64,000 nt of DNA from Paeniglutamicibacter sp. Y32M11 (GTDB lineage Bacteria; Actinomycetota; Actinomycetes; Actinomycetales; Micrococcaceae), in the NCBI RefSeq assembly GCF_019285735.1, contig NZ_CP079107.1, positions 2,852,001-2,916,000 on the forward strand, read 5' to 3'. A program made the translations under genes and the position numbers. Below the pieces are notes generated by a model. That model searched no databases and had not been told where the DNA came from. It saw nothing but the letters and a program-made list of their open reading frames with translations. Of the stretch, positions 18,990-29,218 are shown in pieces (the stretch's first letter is position 1; each line of letters begins with the position of its first letter).

Positions 18990-21755
18990 CTATGGAAAAA
19001 CGACGTCGATAAAGTCCTCAGTACCACTGGCATTTCTAGTGCTCACTCGAACAATCAGCGGGGCATCCGTGCTTGTGCGTAGACCTCTCAGCACAAAACC
19101 GACGTTATCGCGAAGTAATTTGGAACACCTAAAGGTCACGACGCCGTCACCGGCAGAACCTTGCGAGCATAGCTGCCAGGGTTTCATCGAAACGGTAACA
19201 TCGCCGGTGCCCGAGATTACTTCAAAACGGATCCTCCTACTACTCAGGAATTCCAAGTCGCTGGTGTCAATATATGCTTCGTAGTTTCCGTTCAATCCGT
19301 CGACCCTGATGAGGCCCGATGTCAAAGAATCTTCGGTTGGAGCTGGCTCAATCGTCGGCTCCGGCGTCGGCTCGACAGTCGGTTCCGGCGTCGGTTCGAC
19401 CGTGGGCTCAACCGTGGGCTTGACGGTCGGCTCCGGCGTCGGTTCGACAGTCGGTTCCGGCGTCGGTTCGACAGTTGGCTCCACCGTCGGTTCGACCGTT
19501 GGCGCAACCGTGGGCTCCAGCGTCGGGTCCACAGTCGGTTCCGGCGTCGGTTCGACCGTTGGCTCAACCGTTGGCTTGACGGTGGGCTCCAGCGTCGGCT
19601 CGACAGTCGGTTCCGGCGTCGGTTCGACCGTTGGCTCCACCGTCGGTTCGACCGTTGGCGCAACCGTGGGCTCCAGCGTCGGGTCCACAGTCGGTTCCGG
19701 CGTCGGTTCGACCGTTGGCTCAACCGTGGGCTCCGGCGTCGGGTCCACAGTCGGTTCCGGCGTCGGTTCGACCGTTGGCTCAACCGTGGGCTTGACGGTG
19801 GGCTCCGGCGTCGGTTCGACAGTCGGTTCCGGCGTCGGTTCGACAGTTGGCTCCACCGTGGGCTTGACGGTGGGCTCCGGCGTCGGCTCCGGCGTCGGCT
19901 CCACGGTGGGTTCCGGAGTCGGTTCGACCGTTGGCGCAACCGTGGGCTCCAGCGTCGGGTCGACGGTCGGTTCCGGCGTCGGTTCGACCGGTGGCTCAAC
20001 CGTGGGCTTGACGGTGGGCTCCGGCGTCGGCTCCGGCGTCGGCTCCACGGTGGGTTCCGGAGTCGGTTCGACCGTTGGCGCAACCGTGGGCTCCAGCGTC
20101 GGGTCGACGGTCGGTTCCGGCGTTGGTTCGACAGTCGGCTCCGGCGTCGGTTCGACCGGTGGCTCAACCGTGGGCTTGACGGTGGGCTCCGGCGTCGGCT
20201 CCGGCGTCGGCTCCACGGTGGGTTCCGGAGTCGGTTCGACCGTTTGCTCAACCGTGGGCTCCAGCGTCGGGTCGATGGTCGGTTCCGGCGTTGGCTCGAC
20301 AGTCGGCTCCACAGTTGGCTCGACGGTCGGTTCCGGCGTCGGTTCGAGAGTCGGCTCCAGCGTCGGTTCCACAGTCGGCTCCGGCGTCGGTTCCACAGTG
20401 GGCTCAACTAACGACTCCGGAGGCGGAACGGTTGGGTGCTCGGGAGTGGGTTCAGCATTCTTCGTCGCGCTGGGATTGGGGCGAGGCTCAGCAGTACTAA
20501 CCTCGCTCATGTTTGGGCCCACGGCCTCATCAGGTTGCGGCGCAACAGGTTCCCCACCGCCGGTTACTGGCTTTTCCGTAATGTCCAGTTTCGGCGTCGT
20601 CGACAATTTCTGTTGATCACTAACGATTAAAGGAATCGCTACAGAATTTCCGACATACTCCCAAGGGGATCTCTTGTCGACCTGCTGAAGGGAGCCACGG
20701 GTTTGGTGACTCGGCGGATCGCTCTGTTGCTGTTGCCTATTAGTTCCGACTGCAACTCCGGCTGCAATCACTGCTACCGCAGCCGCGGCCGAAACTAGTG
20801 CGATGGTATTCGCTCCGACAAGCGTCCCTATTCCGCCTAGGAAAGTACTTGCAGATCCGGCCGAAGGTATCGCGCTTCCCACAGTGATGGTCCCGGCCTT
20901 CGAAGCAATGACTGTTGATACAGTGCCGCCCCCACTCGAAGCACCAGCGACCGCCGTAATTGCTGCCGGAATTCCCAATGCAGTGATTCCACCAAGGAAC
21001 AGCGGGGCGATGATTCCTCGCATCGAGCCCCCCACATCACTGACATGGAGGAGAATCGCTGTGCATTTAGAGCATTCGTTGAGATGCTCCTCGACCTTGG
21101 CTTCATTACGAGCGCTCAGGCCATTGCGAGCATAAGCTCCCAACTGCCGCGCATATCCCTGACAATCATCAGAATCCGACACATTTACGTGGCCCTGCAA
21201 ATACGCTTGGCGCAGTCCTTCCCGTGCTCTAACGGCAAGCGCGGAAACAGCATTGGCCGATAGTCCTAACAGCGGCGCTATGTCGGCGGGTTTCATTCCG
21301 TCAATCTCGGTGTACCACAGCACCGCCTGCCATCGTTCGGGAAGCGACCGGAAAGCGGCACCCACCACACCGGATTCAAACTGATTTATGATCGGGTCAG
21401 AGTAGGCATCTCCCGAGTCAAAAGTTGAAAAGTCATCGGTCAACGCCTGACGTTTCTGCTTATCGTTGTACGCAAACGCGAGTCGGGAGACCGTGGTGCC
21501 CAAGTAAGCACGGAAAAAGGTATCGGGACCTTTGCCCTTCCGCAAAACAGCGAATACCTTCTCGAATCCTTCTGCGACTAGGTCTTCGGCCTCATAGGAA
21601 CTATTGGAGTGGCGAAACGCAACACGAAGCGCGGCATCATAGTGCCGTTCGTATAGCTGCGATTGCGCACGATCATCCCCCGCCCGTACCTGGGCGGTAA
21701 GTTCAGAATCACTCGGATCGATGGGCTCGACGCTTGGTCCAGACTCAGTGTTCAC
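18990..21755 (-). CDS. ECF sigma factor fused to zinc finger, membrane segments, Pro-Thr repeat stalk and outer domain
   Basis: A 921-residue multidomain regulator. Residues 29-100 form sigma region 2 (EAEDLVAEGFEKVFAVL). Residues 130-185 form region 4 (RSLPERWQAVLWYTEIDGMKPADIAPLLGLS, then the HTH helix). Residues 198-240 form a zinc-finger anti-sigma-like segment with HxxxCxxC (His224, Cys228, Cys231). Hydrophobic segments lie at about 246-272 and 314-337. Residues 449-812 are [EDK]PT[VPL] tetrapeptide repeats. Residues 813-921 form a beta-rich domain with two Cys. ECF families with a fused anti-sigma and membrane tail are known in actinobacteria (ECF52/53 types). The inferred design is an outer sensor domain on a Pro-Thr stalk that controls a tethered sigma factor. 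It diverges from a GGDEF-like gene. No protease gene lies nearby. Confidence 0.88.
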   Translation of the reverse strand: MNTESGPSVEPIDPSDSELTAQVRAGDDRAQSQLYERHYDAALRVAFRHSNSSYEAEDLVAEGFEKVFAVLRKGKGPDTFFRAYLGTTVSRLAFAYNDKQKRQALTDDFSTFDSGDAYSDPIINQFESGVVGAAFRSLPERWQAVLWYTEIDGMKPADIAPLLGLSANAVSALAVRAREGLRQAYLQGHVNVSDSDDCQGYARQLGAYARNGLSARNEAKVEEHLNECSKCTAILLHVSDVGGSMRGIIAPLFLGGITALGIPAAITAVAGASSGGGTVSTVIASKAGTITVGSAIPSAGSASTFLGGIGTLVGANTIALVSAAAAVAVIAAGVAVGTNRQQQQSDPPSHQTRGSLQQVDKRSPWEYVGNSVAIPLIVSDQQKLSTTPKLDITEKPVTGGGEPVAPQPDEAVGPNMSEVSTAEPRPNPSATKNAEPTPEHPTVPPPESLVEPTVEPTPEPTVEPTLEPTLEPTPEPTVEPTVEPTVEPTPEPTIDPTLEPTVEQTVEPTPEPTVEPTPEPTPEPTVKPTVEPPVEPTPEPTVEPTPEPTVDPTLEPTVAPTVEPTPEPTVEPTPEPTPEPTVKPTVEPPVEPTPEPTVDPTLEPTVAPTVEPTPEPTVEPTPEPTPEPTVKPTVEPTVEPTPEPTVEPTPEPTVKPTVEPTVEPTPEPTVDPTPEPTVEPTVEPTPEPTVDPTLEPTVAPTVEPTVEPTVEPTPEPTVEPTLEPTVKPTVEPTVEPTPEPTVDPTLEPTVAPTVEPTVEPTVEPTPEPTVEPTPEPTVKPTVEPTVEPTPEPTVEPTPEPTIEPAPTEDSLTSGLIRVDGLNGNYEAYIDTSDLEFLSSRRIRFEVISGTGDVTVSMKPWQLCSQGSAGDGVVTFRCSKLLRDNVGFVLRGLRTSTDAPLIVRVSTRNASGTEDFIDVVFP
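19345..20430 (-). repeat. Coding tandem repeat: Pro-Thr tetrapeptide array, 12/24-bp periodic
   Basis: About 1.1 kb encodes roughly 90 tetrapeptides of the form EPTV, EPTP, EPTL, DPTL, KPTV or APTV. Most fall in 24-bp pairs (EPTP-EPTV). Larger near-identical blocks recur: the segment starting GGCTTGACGG at 19861 is repeated at 20005 and 20173, offsets of 144 and 168 bases, both multiples of 24. This indicates recent unequal duplication. The opposite strand is also open for 435 codons because of the simple composition. Confidence 0.95.
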
Positions 21756-22770: not shown

Positions 22771-23934
22771 GTGAATGGTTCTGGAAAATCGAAGCAATGT
22801 GAAGTATGCGGATCTGCCCTGAAACGCAATGGAAAGACCTCAGCCGGAACCCAACGCTGGAGGTGCATCCACTGCGGGGCCAGCAGTGTCAAGAAGCGCC
22901 CTGACCTGAAACGTCGAGCCGAGCTAAACCTGTTCCTCCAATGGATCTTGGGGAAACAGTCCCAGGCCTCCTACAACCCCGGCACGGGTAGAACCCTCCG
23001 ACATAACACCCAGTGGTGTTGGGCGATCGAACCATCCCTAGCGCCCACCGGCGAAGTCCACCTGCAGATCCAAATGGACGGCATCTATCTAGGACGTGGG
23101 TGGTGTTGCCTGATCGCGATTGCCAACGGCAAAACCATTGGCTGGCAGTGGTGCGATAGTGAAAAGAGGGTGGCCTGGATAGCGTTGCTGGAACAGTTCC
23201 CAGCACCCCGGGTCGTGATCATTGACGGTGGCTCTGGGCTAGCGGCAGCACTGTCGCAAGCGTGGCCAGAGACTCGCGTTCAACGCTGCCTGGTCCATGT
23301 CCAACGCAACGTGCGCACTTATCTGACCCTGCGACCACGAACGGACGCGGGAAGAGCCCTTCGGCGAATTTCCCTTGCCCTGACACGCATCAAGACCCGA
23401 GAACACGCCACCCAGTGGATGCAAGCGCTGCAGGAATGGCACCACACCTTCGGGGACGTGATCAAGGAACGCACCTACCCGGCGGGACCTGGCGGCCACC
23501 GGCCCAAAGGTGTGAAGCCCACCCAAACCTGGTGGTACACCCACACTCGCCTACGTTCGGCCTACAAACTCCTCGAACGGCTGGTGCGCAGTGGTGAGCT
23601 CTTCACCTACCTGGAGCCAGAATTTGATGGGCTGGCCATCGCTTCGACAACCAACCACATCGAGGGCGGCGTTAACACTCAGCTCCGTGCGCTGCTGCGC
23701 GGGCACCGTGGCATGCCGCCGGCCCATGCGAAACGGGCGGTCGAATGGTGGCTCTACTCCCACAGTGAGAAACCAACTGAACCGCACACTCTCATCCGGC
23801 CTGAACACCTCAACACGAAACCAGTGAAGAAGCAGATCCAGGAGGAAACGATTGGGCCGGAACTCATCGGCACCGCACTGACTGAAGCCGAAGGGCTCTG
23901 GGTCAGAAAAGGATGGGCCGGCAGACCCTGCTGA
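22771..23934 (+). CDS. IS1249-type transposase
   Basis: A 387-residue mutator-type DDE transposase. The N-terminal zinc-ribbon has CEVCG (about 10-14) and CIHCG (about 33-37). The catalytic triad candidates are Asp in QMDGIYL, Asp in VIIDGGSGLAAAL and Glu in NHIEGGVN. The IS256-type CxxH motif region is RCLVHVQRNV. The start is GTG at 22771, with no clear ribosome binding site. The reading frame is intact. Confidence 0.93.
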   Translation: MNGSGKSKQCEVCGSALKRNGKTSAGTQRWRCIHCGASSVKKRPDLKRRAELNLFLQWILGKQSQASYNPGTGRTLRHNTQWCWAIEPSLAPTGEVHLQIQMDGIYLGRGWCCLIAIANGKTIGWQWCDSEKRVAWIALLEQFPAPRVVIIDGGSGLAAALSQAWPETRVQRCLVHVQRNVRTYLTLRPRTDAGRALRRISLALTRIKTREHATQWMQALQEWHHTFGDVIKERTYPAGPGGHRPKGVKPTQTWWYTHTRLRSAYKLLERLVRSGELFTYLEPEFDGLAIASTTNHIEGGVNTQLRALLRGHRGMPPAHAKRAVEWWLYSHSEKPTEPHTLIRPEHLNTKPVKKQIQEETIGPELIGTALTEAEGLWVRKGWAGRPC

Positions 23935-26766: not shown

Positions 26767-26800
26767 TTTTTCCCGGGTACAAAGGACCGATAAAAACCAC

Positions 26801-26837
26801 GAGGACCGGTGCGATTCGACGAATCGCACCGGTCCTC
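26801..26837 (+). terminator. Terminator of rarD
   Basis: A perfect 18-bp inverted repeat (26801-26818 with 26820-26837) lies 34 bases after the rarD stop codon. It has no long T run. Confidence 0.7.
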
Positions 26838-26960
26838 AATCGCATTACGACAGGGCATAGATAGTGGGATGTCCCAGATCATCGTGTCTGGTTCTAGTCC
26901 GAAAAAAAGGGTCACGAGCGTGATTCTGGGTGCTCCTCTATTTCCAATATAGCGCGCGCT

Positions 26961-26984
26961 GGGGGTCTTGCCGCAAGGCCCCCC
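26961..26984 (+). promoter_or_regulatory. Rifamycin-associated-element-like palindrome upstream of helR
   Basis: The sequence GGGGGTCTTGCCGCAAGG followed by C's is an inverted repeat centred on CTTGC-C-GCAAG with G-rich and C-rich arms. This is the form of the rifamycin-associated element known upstream of rifamycin resistance genes, including helR, in actinobacteria. It lies 53 bases before the chosen helR ATG and shortly after a -10-like AATATA (26946-26951). Confidence 0.75.
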
Positions 26985-27037
26985 ATCGGGGCCACAATGG
27001 TCAGGCACAAGCCGCATCACGGGATGGGATCCACCGC

Positions 27038-29218
27038 ATGACTCAGCGACCAACAACTGCCACCAAGCCCACTGTTACATTCCCCGAAAGCGCCTTCAAC
27101 CCGGGTCTCTTAGGTACCGCAAAATCTGCTCCATCATTGATTAGCGGCGACGAACAGCATTTTTCCGCCATCGCATCGACCCTCAAACAACGGCTCTCCG
27201 AACTCTCCACCGCCCTTGATAGTGCCCGAAAGGGTCCACGCGCACATGGTCAGGAAGCACTGGAACGAGATATGGAGGTGCACCGGCTGGCCACCCGTCT
27301 GCGCACCCTGAACCGTTTCGGGCTTGATTTATGTTTGGGCCGGATGGAGGCTGCCGACGGTACGGAACCGATCTATGTGGGTCGACTCGGGCTCACCGAT
27401 GATGACGGGCACCGCTTACTGATCGACTGGCGCTCCCCCGCCGCTGCCCCCTTCTTCGCTGCCACTCATGCCCATCCAATGGGTCTGGTCGCTAGACGCC
27501 GGTACCGCTGGTCCGCGGGACTCATTAGTGACTATTGGGACGAGGTCTTCACCACCGATCGCCTCGAATCCACCGTTGCCCTTGATGATCAGTCGGCGTT
27601 CATCGCCAGTCTGGGCGTTAATAGGTCGAAAAAGATGCGTGACGTGGTGAGCACCATTCAGGCCGACCAGGATGCGATCATCAGGGCGCCCTCGCGGGGC
27701 GCCTTGGTGGTCGACGGCGGGCCGGGGACGGGCAAAACCGTTGTGGCTCTGCACCGCGCGGCATATTTGCTCTATTCGGATCCACGCGTCGGTCATCATC
27801 TGGGTGGGGTACTTTTCATCGGCCCGCACCAGCCGTATCTTGCCTACATTTCCGATGTCCTGCCGGGACTTGGTGAAGAAGGAGTTCGAGTCTGCACGCT
27901 CAGGGACCTCGACCCCGCCGGTGAAACCGCCGTGCCCGAATCCGATCGAGGACTCGCAGCGCTGAAGTCCAGCGTCGAGATGGTCTCGGCGATCTCCACG
28001 GCCGTCGGTTTCTTCCAGGAGCCACCCACACAGAGCACCATCATCACCACCGAATGGGCGGAATTGGAGCTCGATGCGCGGGACTGGGCAGAGGCCTTCT
28101 CCGCGCCGGAGGACGGAACTCCGCACAATGAGGCCCGGGAAGCGGTCCACGAGGCGCTGCTAGACATCCTGGTCGACAAGCTTGATGCGGATACTCCCAT
28201 CGACATGGTCCGTGCTGCGCTGGCGACTCATCCGAATCTGAACGCCGCACTTTCGGCGGCGTGGCCGATGCTGGAACCGGCCAACATCGTCGCCGGCATG
28301 TTCACGATTCCCACATTCCTGGCCATGTGCGCACCCTGGCTGAGCGAAGCCCAGATTCACTCATTACAACGCAGCGACGGGCTGGCCTGGACGGATGCCG
28401 ATCTTCCGCTATTGGATGCCGCACGGGAGCGTTTGGGCGATTCGGGAGCCTCGGCACGCCGGGCTCGCCGCAGGACGGAGCTGGCGGCCAGACGCCGGGA
28501 GATGGCCAGCGTCATCGAGGAAGCCATCCTTGCCGATGATTCGGAATTACTCGTCAGCTCGATGCTGCGCGGGGAGGACATGGCCGAAAAACTAGACCAG
28601 GCGGCCGATTTACCTGTGGAAAGTGCCGATCCGTTGGCCGGACCCTTTACGCACATCGTGGTCGATGAGGCGCAGGAACTCAGTGATGCCCAATGGCAGA
28701 TGCTGCTGCGCCGCTGCCCGTCGGGTTCCTTCACCATCGTCGGGGACCGTGCGCAGGCACGGGAGGGATTTGAAGAGTCATGGGAACAACGCCTCACCCG
28801 GATCGGCTTGAAGCGCATCAGCGTATCCACCCTGTCCATCAACTACCGCACCCCGGCCGAAATCATGGTTCAGGCGCGGGCCGCCATCACCGCCGAACTA
28901 CCCGATGCCAACGTGCCGCAATCCATCCGCACCGGGGGCGCGCCCGTTGAACGAGGCAGTGTCGCGGATCTGTCGGTGCGCCTTACCACGTGGTTGGTTC
29001 AGCATCCCACGGGGCACGCGGCCGTCATCGGGCACCCGGACTTCGCGCCGCGTCCGCGCGTCGCCTCGCTGACTCCGGTACTGGCGAAGGGACTGGAATT
29101 TGATCTGGTTATCGTGGTGAACCCGCAAGACTTCGGCACGGGAATCACCGGTGCCGTGGATCGTTATGTCGCCATGACCCGCGCGACGGGAACGCTGCTG
29201 ATCCTGGAGGATCACTAG
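27038..29218 (+). CDS. helR: HelR/HelD-type RNA polymerase-recycling superfamily 1 ATPase
   Basis: A 726-residue UvrD/Rep-like ATPase. HelD proteins pry stalled RNA polymerase from DNA. The HelR branch also dislodges bound rifamycin and gives resistance. Seen: an N-terminal coiled arm (about 35-100), Walker A GGPGTGKT (227-234), Walker B with VVDEAQELSDAQW (about 545), motif TIVGDRAQA, SINYRTPAEI, and C-terminal motif YVAMTRAT. ATG 27038 is preferred over the frame opening at 26930, because the RAE-like palindrome lies between them and homology starts near the later Met. The RAE-like site supports the HelR rather than the constitutive HelD form; biochemical proof is lacking. Confidence 0.85.
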   Translation: MTQRPTTATKPTVTFPESAFNPGLLGTAKSAPSLISGDEQHFSAIASTLKQRLSELSTALDSARKGPRAHGQEALERDMEVHRLATRLRTLNRFGLDLCLGRMEAADGTEPIYVGRLGLTDDDGHRLLIDWRSPAAAPFFAATHAHPMGLVARRRYRWSAGLISDYWDEVFTTDRLESTVALDDQSAFIASLGVNRSKKMRDVVSTIQADQDAIIRAPSRGALVVDGGPGTGKTVVALHRAAYLLYSDPRVGHHLGGVLFIGPHQPYLAYISDVLPGLGEEGVRVCTLRDLDPAGETAVPESDRGLAALKSSVEMVSAISTAVGFFQEPPTQSTIITTEWAELELDARDWAEAFSAPEDGTPHNEAREAVHEALLDILVDKLDADTPIDMVRAALATHPNLNAALSAAWPMLEPANIVAGMFTIPTFLAMCAPWLSEAQIHSLQRSDGLAWTDADLPLLDAARERLGDSGASARRARRRTELAARRREMASVIEEAILADDSELLVSSMLRGEDMAEKLDQAADLPVESADPLAGPFTHIVVDEAQELSDAQWQMLLRRCPSGSFTIVGDRAQAREGFEESWEQRLTRIGLKRISVSTLSINYRTPAEIMVQARAAITAELPDANVPQSIRTGGAPVERGSVADLSVRLTTWLVQHPTGHAAVIGHPDFAPRPRVASLTPVLAKGLEFDLVIVVNPQDFGTGITGAVDRYVAMTRATGTLLILEDH

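Follow-up and report, generated by a model that had tools for sequence, protein, structure and literature searches.

A class II HelD/HelR ATPase of 726 amino acids is encoded by an open reading frame ending at position 29218 of the stretch of DNA analysed here (hereafter the window), which comprises 64,000 nt of the complete 4.17-Mb chromosome of Paeniglutamicibacter sp. Y32M11 (NZ_CP079107.1). In the leader of this frame, 61 bp 5' of the ATG at 27038, lies a palindrome whose sequence can be read directly at 26961-26984 as GGGGGT-CTTGC-C-GCAAG-G-CCCCCC, with its core at 26967-26977. The initial annotation had reported a HelD/HelR-type ATPase with a palindrome in its leader, and direct reading found both to be present at 26961-29218. 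In order along the forward strand, the features of the locus are:

26800-26838, - strand: strong intrinsic terminator, an 18-pair stem followed by TGGTTTTTAT; leftward, between the EamA gene and the module
26902-26939, - strand: predicted antisense RNA, from its start at ~26939 to a T7 tract (26908-26902); the 5' hairpin, which most relatives have in a strong form, is weak here
26946-26951, - strand: antisense -10 box TATATT, at offset -21 to -26 from the RAE centre
26963-26981, no strand assigned: RAE, the 19-bp palindrome GGGTCTTGCCGCAAGGCCC, core 26967-26977, centre 26972
26968-26973, + strand: putative sense -35 TTGCCG, within the RAE, with 19-bp spacing to the conserved -10
26971-26976, - strand: putative antisense -35 TTGCGG, on the other strand of the palindrome, the mirror of the sense -35
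26993-26998, + strand: sense -10 box CACAAT, at offset +21 to +26 from the RAE centre
27038-29218, + strand: helR coding sequence, class II HelD/HelR ATPase, 726 amino acids

The start codon that had been preferred, 27038 rather than 26930, was upheld, as it aligns with the N-termini of homologues and fits an RAE-driven mRNA, from which the GTG at 26930 would be absent because the RAE, the -10 box at 26993-26998 and the predicted sense start at about 27004-27007 all lie 3' of it. EamA, the upstream gene, runs on the + strand, codirectional with helR, so that the antisense promoter predicted at this locus would serve no divergent gene there. A Mutator-family transposase (22771-23934) adjoins the helR neighbourhood. 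Elsewhere in the window, a 921-residue open reading frame (18990-21755, - strand) combines sigma-70 regions 2 and 4 with a zinc-finger anti-sigma-like domain and a long PT-repeat tail, and a sodium:neurotransmitter symporter gene (PF00209; 31063-32713, - strand) is split into two overlapping frames in different registers that cover complementary halves of the domain, which points to a frameshifted gene or a sequencing error.

Identity of the HelR protein

The window protein scores 1107.5 bits against the NCBIfam profile NF041254 (RNA polymerase recycling motor ATPase HelR), for which the cut-off is 750, compared with 393 bits against the NCBIfam model of M. smegmatis HelD, for which the cut-off is 1051; it also scores well under the cut-off of the second HelR model of NCBIfam. 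Its sequence contains a Walker A motif (GGPGTGKT), a Walker B motif (VVDEAQEL) and a primary-channel-loop (PCh-loop) tip, DDSELL, and the closest solved chain is that of M. smegmatis HelD (6yxu, E=1e-104). In a maximum-likelihood tree, in which the program flags the long branches that separate the HelR and HelD groups, the protein lies within a 22-row HelR clade with a support of 100/100, while its own paralogue (L005), other Micrococcaceae paralogues and the mycobacterial HelDs fall outside this clade. The acidic primary-channel-loop tip is retained, with DDSELL standing opposite DDEDHLL of M. smegmatis HelD in the sequence alignment, but is missing from the paralogues, including L005, the class II HelD of the same genome. 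In M. smegmatis HelD, Asp485 in this loop clashes with rifampicin (PMC11464796). The assignment as HelR is therefore backed by profile, tree and acidic PCh-loop tip, and placement in the HelD clade without HelR features, the outcome against which the assignment was checked, did not occur.

The nearest named relative, from Paeniglutamicibacter terrestris, is 95% identical, after which the identity drops to only 59-64% in other genera. The window HelR is about 60% identical to the streptomycete HelR homologues found, and shares with Streptomyces venezuelae HelR (SVEN_6029) membership of the NF041254 family, an RAE leader, the acidic PCh tip and the presence of a second HelD paralogue in the genome. 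Its likeness to M. smegmatis HelD (6YXU/6YYS) comprises a class II HelD fold, as judged by sequence, the primary-channel loop and an RAE-type leader in mycobacteria; the two nevertheless occupy separate, strongly supported branches, and the window protein scores below the cut-off of the mycobacterial family.

An ordinary housekeeping HelD that recycles stalled polymerase, with the RAE as a relic without any part in rifamycin tolerance, would be in keeping with the presence in the same genome of an arr gene without an RAE. This explanation is nonetheless highly improbable, since a separate class II HelD paralogue (L005) is present, the whole module around the RAE is intact and the distribution of HelR is patchy, with scores over the cut-off in 23 of 149 Micrococcaceae genomes and in two of eight congeners.

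The RAE palindrome and the genes behind it

As Spanogiannopoulos 2014 is reported in other papers (PMC10719064, PMC12802891), the RAE is a 19-bp palindrome found 5' of rifamycin-resistance genes and overlapping the -35 of the proximal promoter, and the window palindrome resembles this published element in both respects. In relatives, RAE genes are induced by sub-inhibitory rifamycin and deletion of half of the RAE abolishes the induction; RAE control lets actinobacteria, including Mycobacterium abscessus, induce rifamycin defences (PMC10719064, PMC12802891). With its 19 bp, its CTTGCNGCAAG core, its GGG/CCC arms and its position ahead of a rifamycin-resistance gene, the window palindrome proved to be a genuine RAE; the initial annotation had called it RAE-like.

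The core alone (CTTGCNGCAAG) occurs at three places in the 4.17-Mb genome, compared with eight for a control pattern, and is not rarer than expected by chance; the other two places lie in coding sequence and are devoid of the G/C arms. The armed pattern GGGNCTTGCNGCAAGNCCC, on the other hand, has a single match in the whole genome, at the helR leader, and is present in 158 of 395 Actinomycetes genomes, where its reversed control gave three single matches in total. The frequency of the armed palindrome in Actinomycetes is far beyond chance. A pattern shifted in register from the palindrome (GGGGCTTGCNNGCAAG) showed no excess over chance when the window was scanned.

The genes behind 180 distinct RAE sites were classed as helR/rgt (133), rox (23), rph (7) and arr (5), the rest being open-reading-frame calls without a class; the class names were checked by NCBIfam on partial representatives. 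Among the downstream genes that could be classified, only rifamycin-resistance genes were found, in agreement with the earlier view that the RAE marks such genes, and this unbiased list supports the functional inference that the initial annotation drew from the element, which predicts inducible rifamycin tolerance. In most congeners an RAE precedes rox or helR. Judged by its protein and its leader, the locus is a sound further member of the HelR/RAE class. The rifampin ADP-ribosyltransferase gene (arr) of the same genome (L238, G000:C1:2925723-2926085; 160 bits, cut-off 130), which is located about 9.7 kb to the right of the window end, has no RAE-like site within about 1.5 kb and is probably outside the RAE regulon.

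In an alignment of 79 helR leaders on the palindrome, for which an exact core was not demanded, the 11-bp core shows little or no variation, G/C arms included. The possibility that the RAE acts as an RNA hairpin was ruled out, position 6/6' being paired in 32% of sites compared with 28% expected; folding of the sense leader was no better than that of shuffles. The palindrome shows no compensatory change and is to be regarded as a DNA element.

Mirror boxes and an antisense hairpin around the RAE

Conservation in the 79 helR leaders extends from about -45 to +40, far past the 19 bp of the palindrome, and on this alignment the RAE is the centre of a module of roughly 90 bp. Across 112 non-redundant sites from all gene classes, of which those not ahead of helR were found with the exact core and oriented by flank score, the sense hexamer at +21 to +26 reads xANNNT in 99% and CANNNT in 90%, and the antisense hexamer at -21 to -26 reads TANNNT in 96%. 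At any other offset TANNNT or CANNNT is found in at most 4% of these sites, and NANNNT is also low except where it overlaps adjacent conserved bases. The two boxes occupy exact mirror positions, each being separated by 19 bp from a TTGC(C/G)G hexamer of the same strand, and in the helR leaders, which are oriented by the gene, the antisense box is present in 78 of 78, regardless of the orientation of the upstream gene. A sense and an antisense promoter would use the palindrome as a common -35. Scanning the region for the sigma-70 consensus gave no match, as the boxes depart from it and the spacer measures 19 bp.

In the window the RAE overlaps the putative -35 of the proximal sense promoter and CACAAT stands at the fixed +21 offset. 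The predicted sense promoter agrees with the published P2, the -35 of which overlaps the RAE (PMC10719064). The mirror antisense box appears to be a new feature, as it goes without mention in those papers on the RAE that are accessible; in these, the RAE is an isolated palindrome awaiting an unknown factor, whereas here it is the centre of a module of ~90 bp with a predicted mirror antisense promoter and an immediate hairpin/terminator. The antisense box displays a -10 signature (T1, A2 and T6, with free middle bases) that persists in sites without the adjacent TAGC, among them the window, which has TATATT. A role as the mere promoter of a divergent gene was ruled out, as the antisense promoter is kept where the upstream gene is codirectional, the window included. 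In congeners, the RAE modules of rox (L224-L229, L231) combine a consensus-like sense box, TACACT, with an antisense box, are mostly devoid of the antisense terminator hairpin and often face another open reading frame on the antisense side.

A conserved GG seven bases past the antisense box is the predicted antisense start, from which the predicted RNA would fold at once into a hairpin. The arms of this hairpin vary by species yet stay complementary, as in GGCAAGGAG-TGGATAA-CTCCTTGCC-TTTG, in GGGAAGGAG-TTGTT-CTCCTTCC-TTTTTT and, ahead of rph, in GGCAGGGAG-TCGT-CTCCCTGCC-TTTG, and at every stem position GC, AT and other pairs occur across sites. A stem of at least seven pairs starting from offset 31-36 was found at 78 of 111 sites, compared with 20-37 of 111 at ten control offsets, and such a stem with at least four T in the next nine bases at 35 of 111, compared with 0-3 in the controls; a hairpin with at least three T was found at only 49 of 111. 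The sense side has no comparable hairpin or terminator. Of 78 helR leaders, 69 have the hairpin, also where a divergent upstream neighbour lies close by, and it is therefore not simply a protection of a codirectional neighbour. What has been conserved looks like an antisense promoter that starts and then terminates immediately. In the window itself the proximal hairpin is eroded (-6.6 kcal/mol) and the T7 tract lies 31 nt past the predicted antisense start at ~26939, while P. terrestris has kept a six-pair stem followed by TTTTT.

The left block might instead be a second sense promoter, P1 (-10 CANNNT, -27 to -22), in tandem with P2, with the hairpin as a terminator insulating the module against read-through from upstream. 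A-N3-T is indeed identical when read on either strand, two sense starts have been mapped around the RAE of M. smegmatis helD (PMC10719064) and a codirectional upstream gene is common (50 of 76). This arrangement is nevertheless unlikely: the A at -21, which is T1 of the antisense box, is conserved in 95-98%, against a sense T1 in just 7% of the subset that has lost TAGC; no conserved -35 accompanies the sense reading; and the hairpin goes with the predicted antisense start, carries its T-tract on the antisense side (T-tailed hairpins 5' of the RAE are leftward at 36 sites, compared with seven where they are rightward) and persists with a divergent upstream gene. Retention of T1, the common -35 and persistence after loss of TAGC make the antisense reading of the left hexamer the better one.

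RNA polymerase as a candidate rifamycin sensor

By analogy with studied relatives, HelR would enter drug-stalled RNA polymerase, in which its clamp arm and primary-channel loop would displace nucleic acid and rifamycin. The anatomy of its leader is that of two promoters, a weak one in the sense direction and a better-formed one in the antisense direction, and the single palindromic -35 common to both would leave room for one polymerase at a time. The antisense promoter would initiate at the conserved GG and, in most relatives, meet the terminator-like hairpin within about 30 nt. Such a start followed by a stop, taken together with conservation and covariation, suggests that the conserved job of this promoter is starting rather than making RNA, and that it has likely been kept for occupancy and not for its product. 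Since its -35 is shared with the weaker sense promoter, the antisense promoter could keep the latter shut. Without the drug, terminated polymerase may recycle locally onto the antisense promoter, firing and terminating repeatedly and thereby occluding the sense promoter. Rifamycin blocks RNA beyond 2-3 nt, and would break this futile antisense cycle, upon which fresh drug-free polymerase would fire the sense promoter. RNA polymerase would then be its own drug sensor and a dedicated regulator would be unnecessary.

We tentatively propose, while recognizing that the proposal may well fail, that the RAE is the common -35 of a two-faced promoter whose decoy antisense unit makes polymerase the rifamycin sensor for helR, rgt, rox, rph and arr. 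For the window gene, the joint reading as a rifamycin-inducible target-protection gene, with an RAE module in its leader and a polymerase-sensing switch, comes close to being evenly poised without quite reaching that point. Several observations speak against polymerase sensing, namely the weak hairpin of the window, the rox RAEs of congeners that mostly go without one and the modest share of sites that combine a hairpin with a short T-tract. Furthermore, a drug-stalled polymerase on the antisense promoter would also block the common -35, so that induction requires the departure of the stalled complex.

The palindrome is stricter than a -35 needs to be and its hexamers bear little resemblance to TTGACA, two features that suggest a bound protein. 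It may be the operator of an undiscovered dimeric rifamycin-responsive factor that sits over both -35 boxes and either activates the sense promoter or frees it, in which case the antisense unit would be accessory, or be fired and silenced along with it. The near-invariance of the core in the 79 unbiased helR leaders, extending to G/C arms not read by sigma, the absence of RNA covariation in the palindrome, hence a DNA element, and the assumption in the literature of an as yet unknown factor (PMC10719064, PMC12802891) make this a serious possibility, although one short of probable; the strictness of the palindrome renders an RAE-binding protein nearly as likely as polymerase sensing. Nevertheless, no linked regulator gene recurs in 80 helR neighbourhoods, where rgt alone does so (13 of 80), and an operator leaves unexplained why an unwanted antisense -10, with a terminator where its RNA begins, should have been retained in 96-100% of sites.

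Sensing by polymerase has a counterpart in helD/pps of B. subtilis, an antisense-promoter rifampicin alarm in which RNA polymerase is the sensor and an RNA polymerase mutation abolishes the response (PMC12802891). There too, the weak sense promoter of a protection gene is believed to be kept silent by a strong antisense promoter, but the promoters are convergent, 39 bp apart and without an RAE (PMC12802891), whereas those predicted for the window module are divergent, have a common -35 and include an antisense unit that would terminate at once. Convergent, non-overlapping dual promoters of the B. subtilis type were not found at the window locus, and this difference in geometry means that the published model is not directly transferable.

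If polymerase sensing holds true, the actinobacterial and Bacillus responses would be united under promoter competition read by the polymerase, and the movement of such resistance genes between genera without a regulator would be explained. The mirror promoter and its immediate hairpin/terminator offer a concrete anatomy to mutate and would provide a mechanism that operates without a regulator; the module thus makes rifamycin sensing by the RAE directly testable. A natural variant is at hand in five actinobacterial RAEs (L010, L017, L070, L071 and L083), which have in common an asymmetric core, CTTGCCACAAG, with a better sense -35 (TTGCCA) and a weaker antisense -35.
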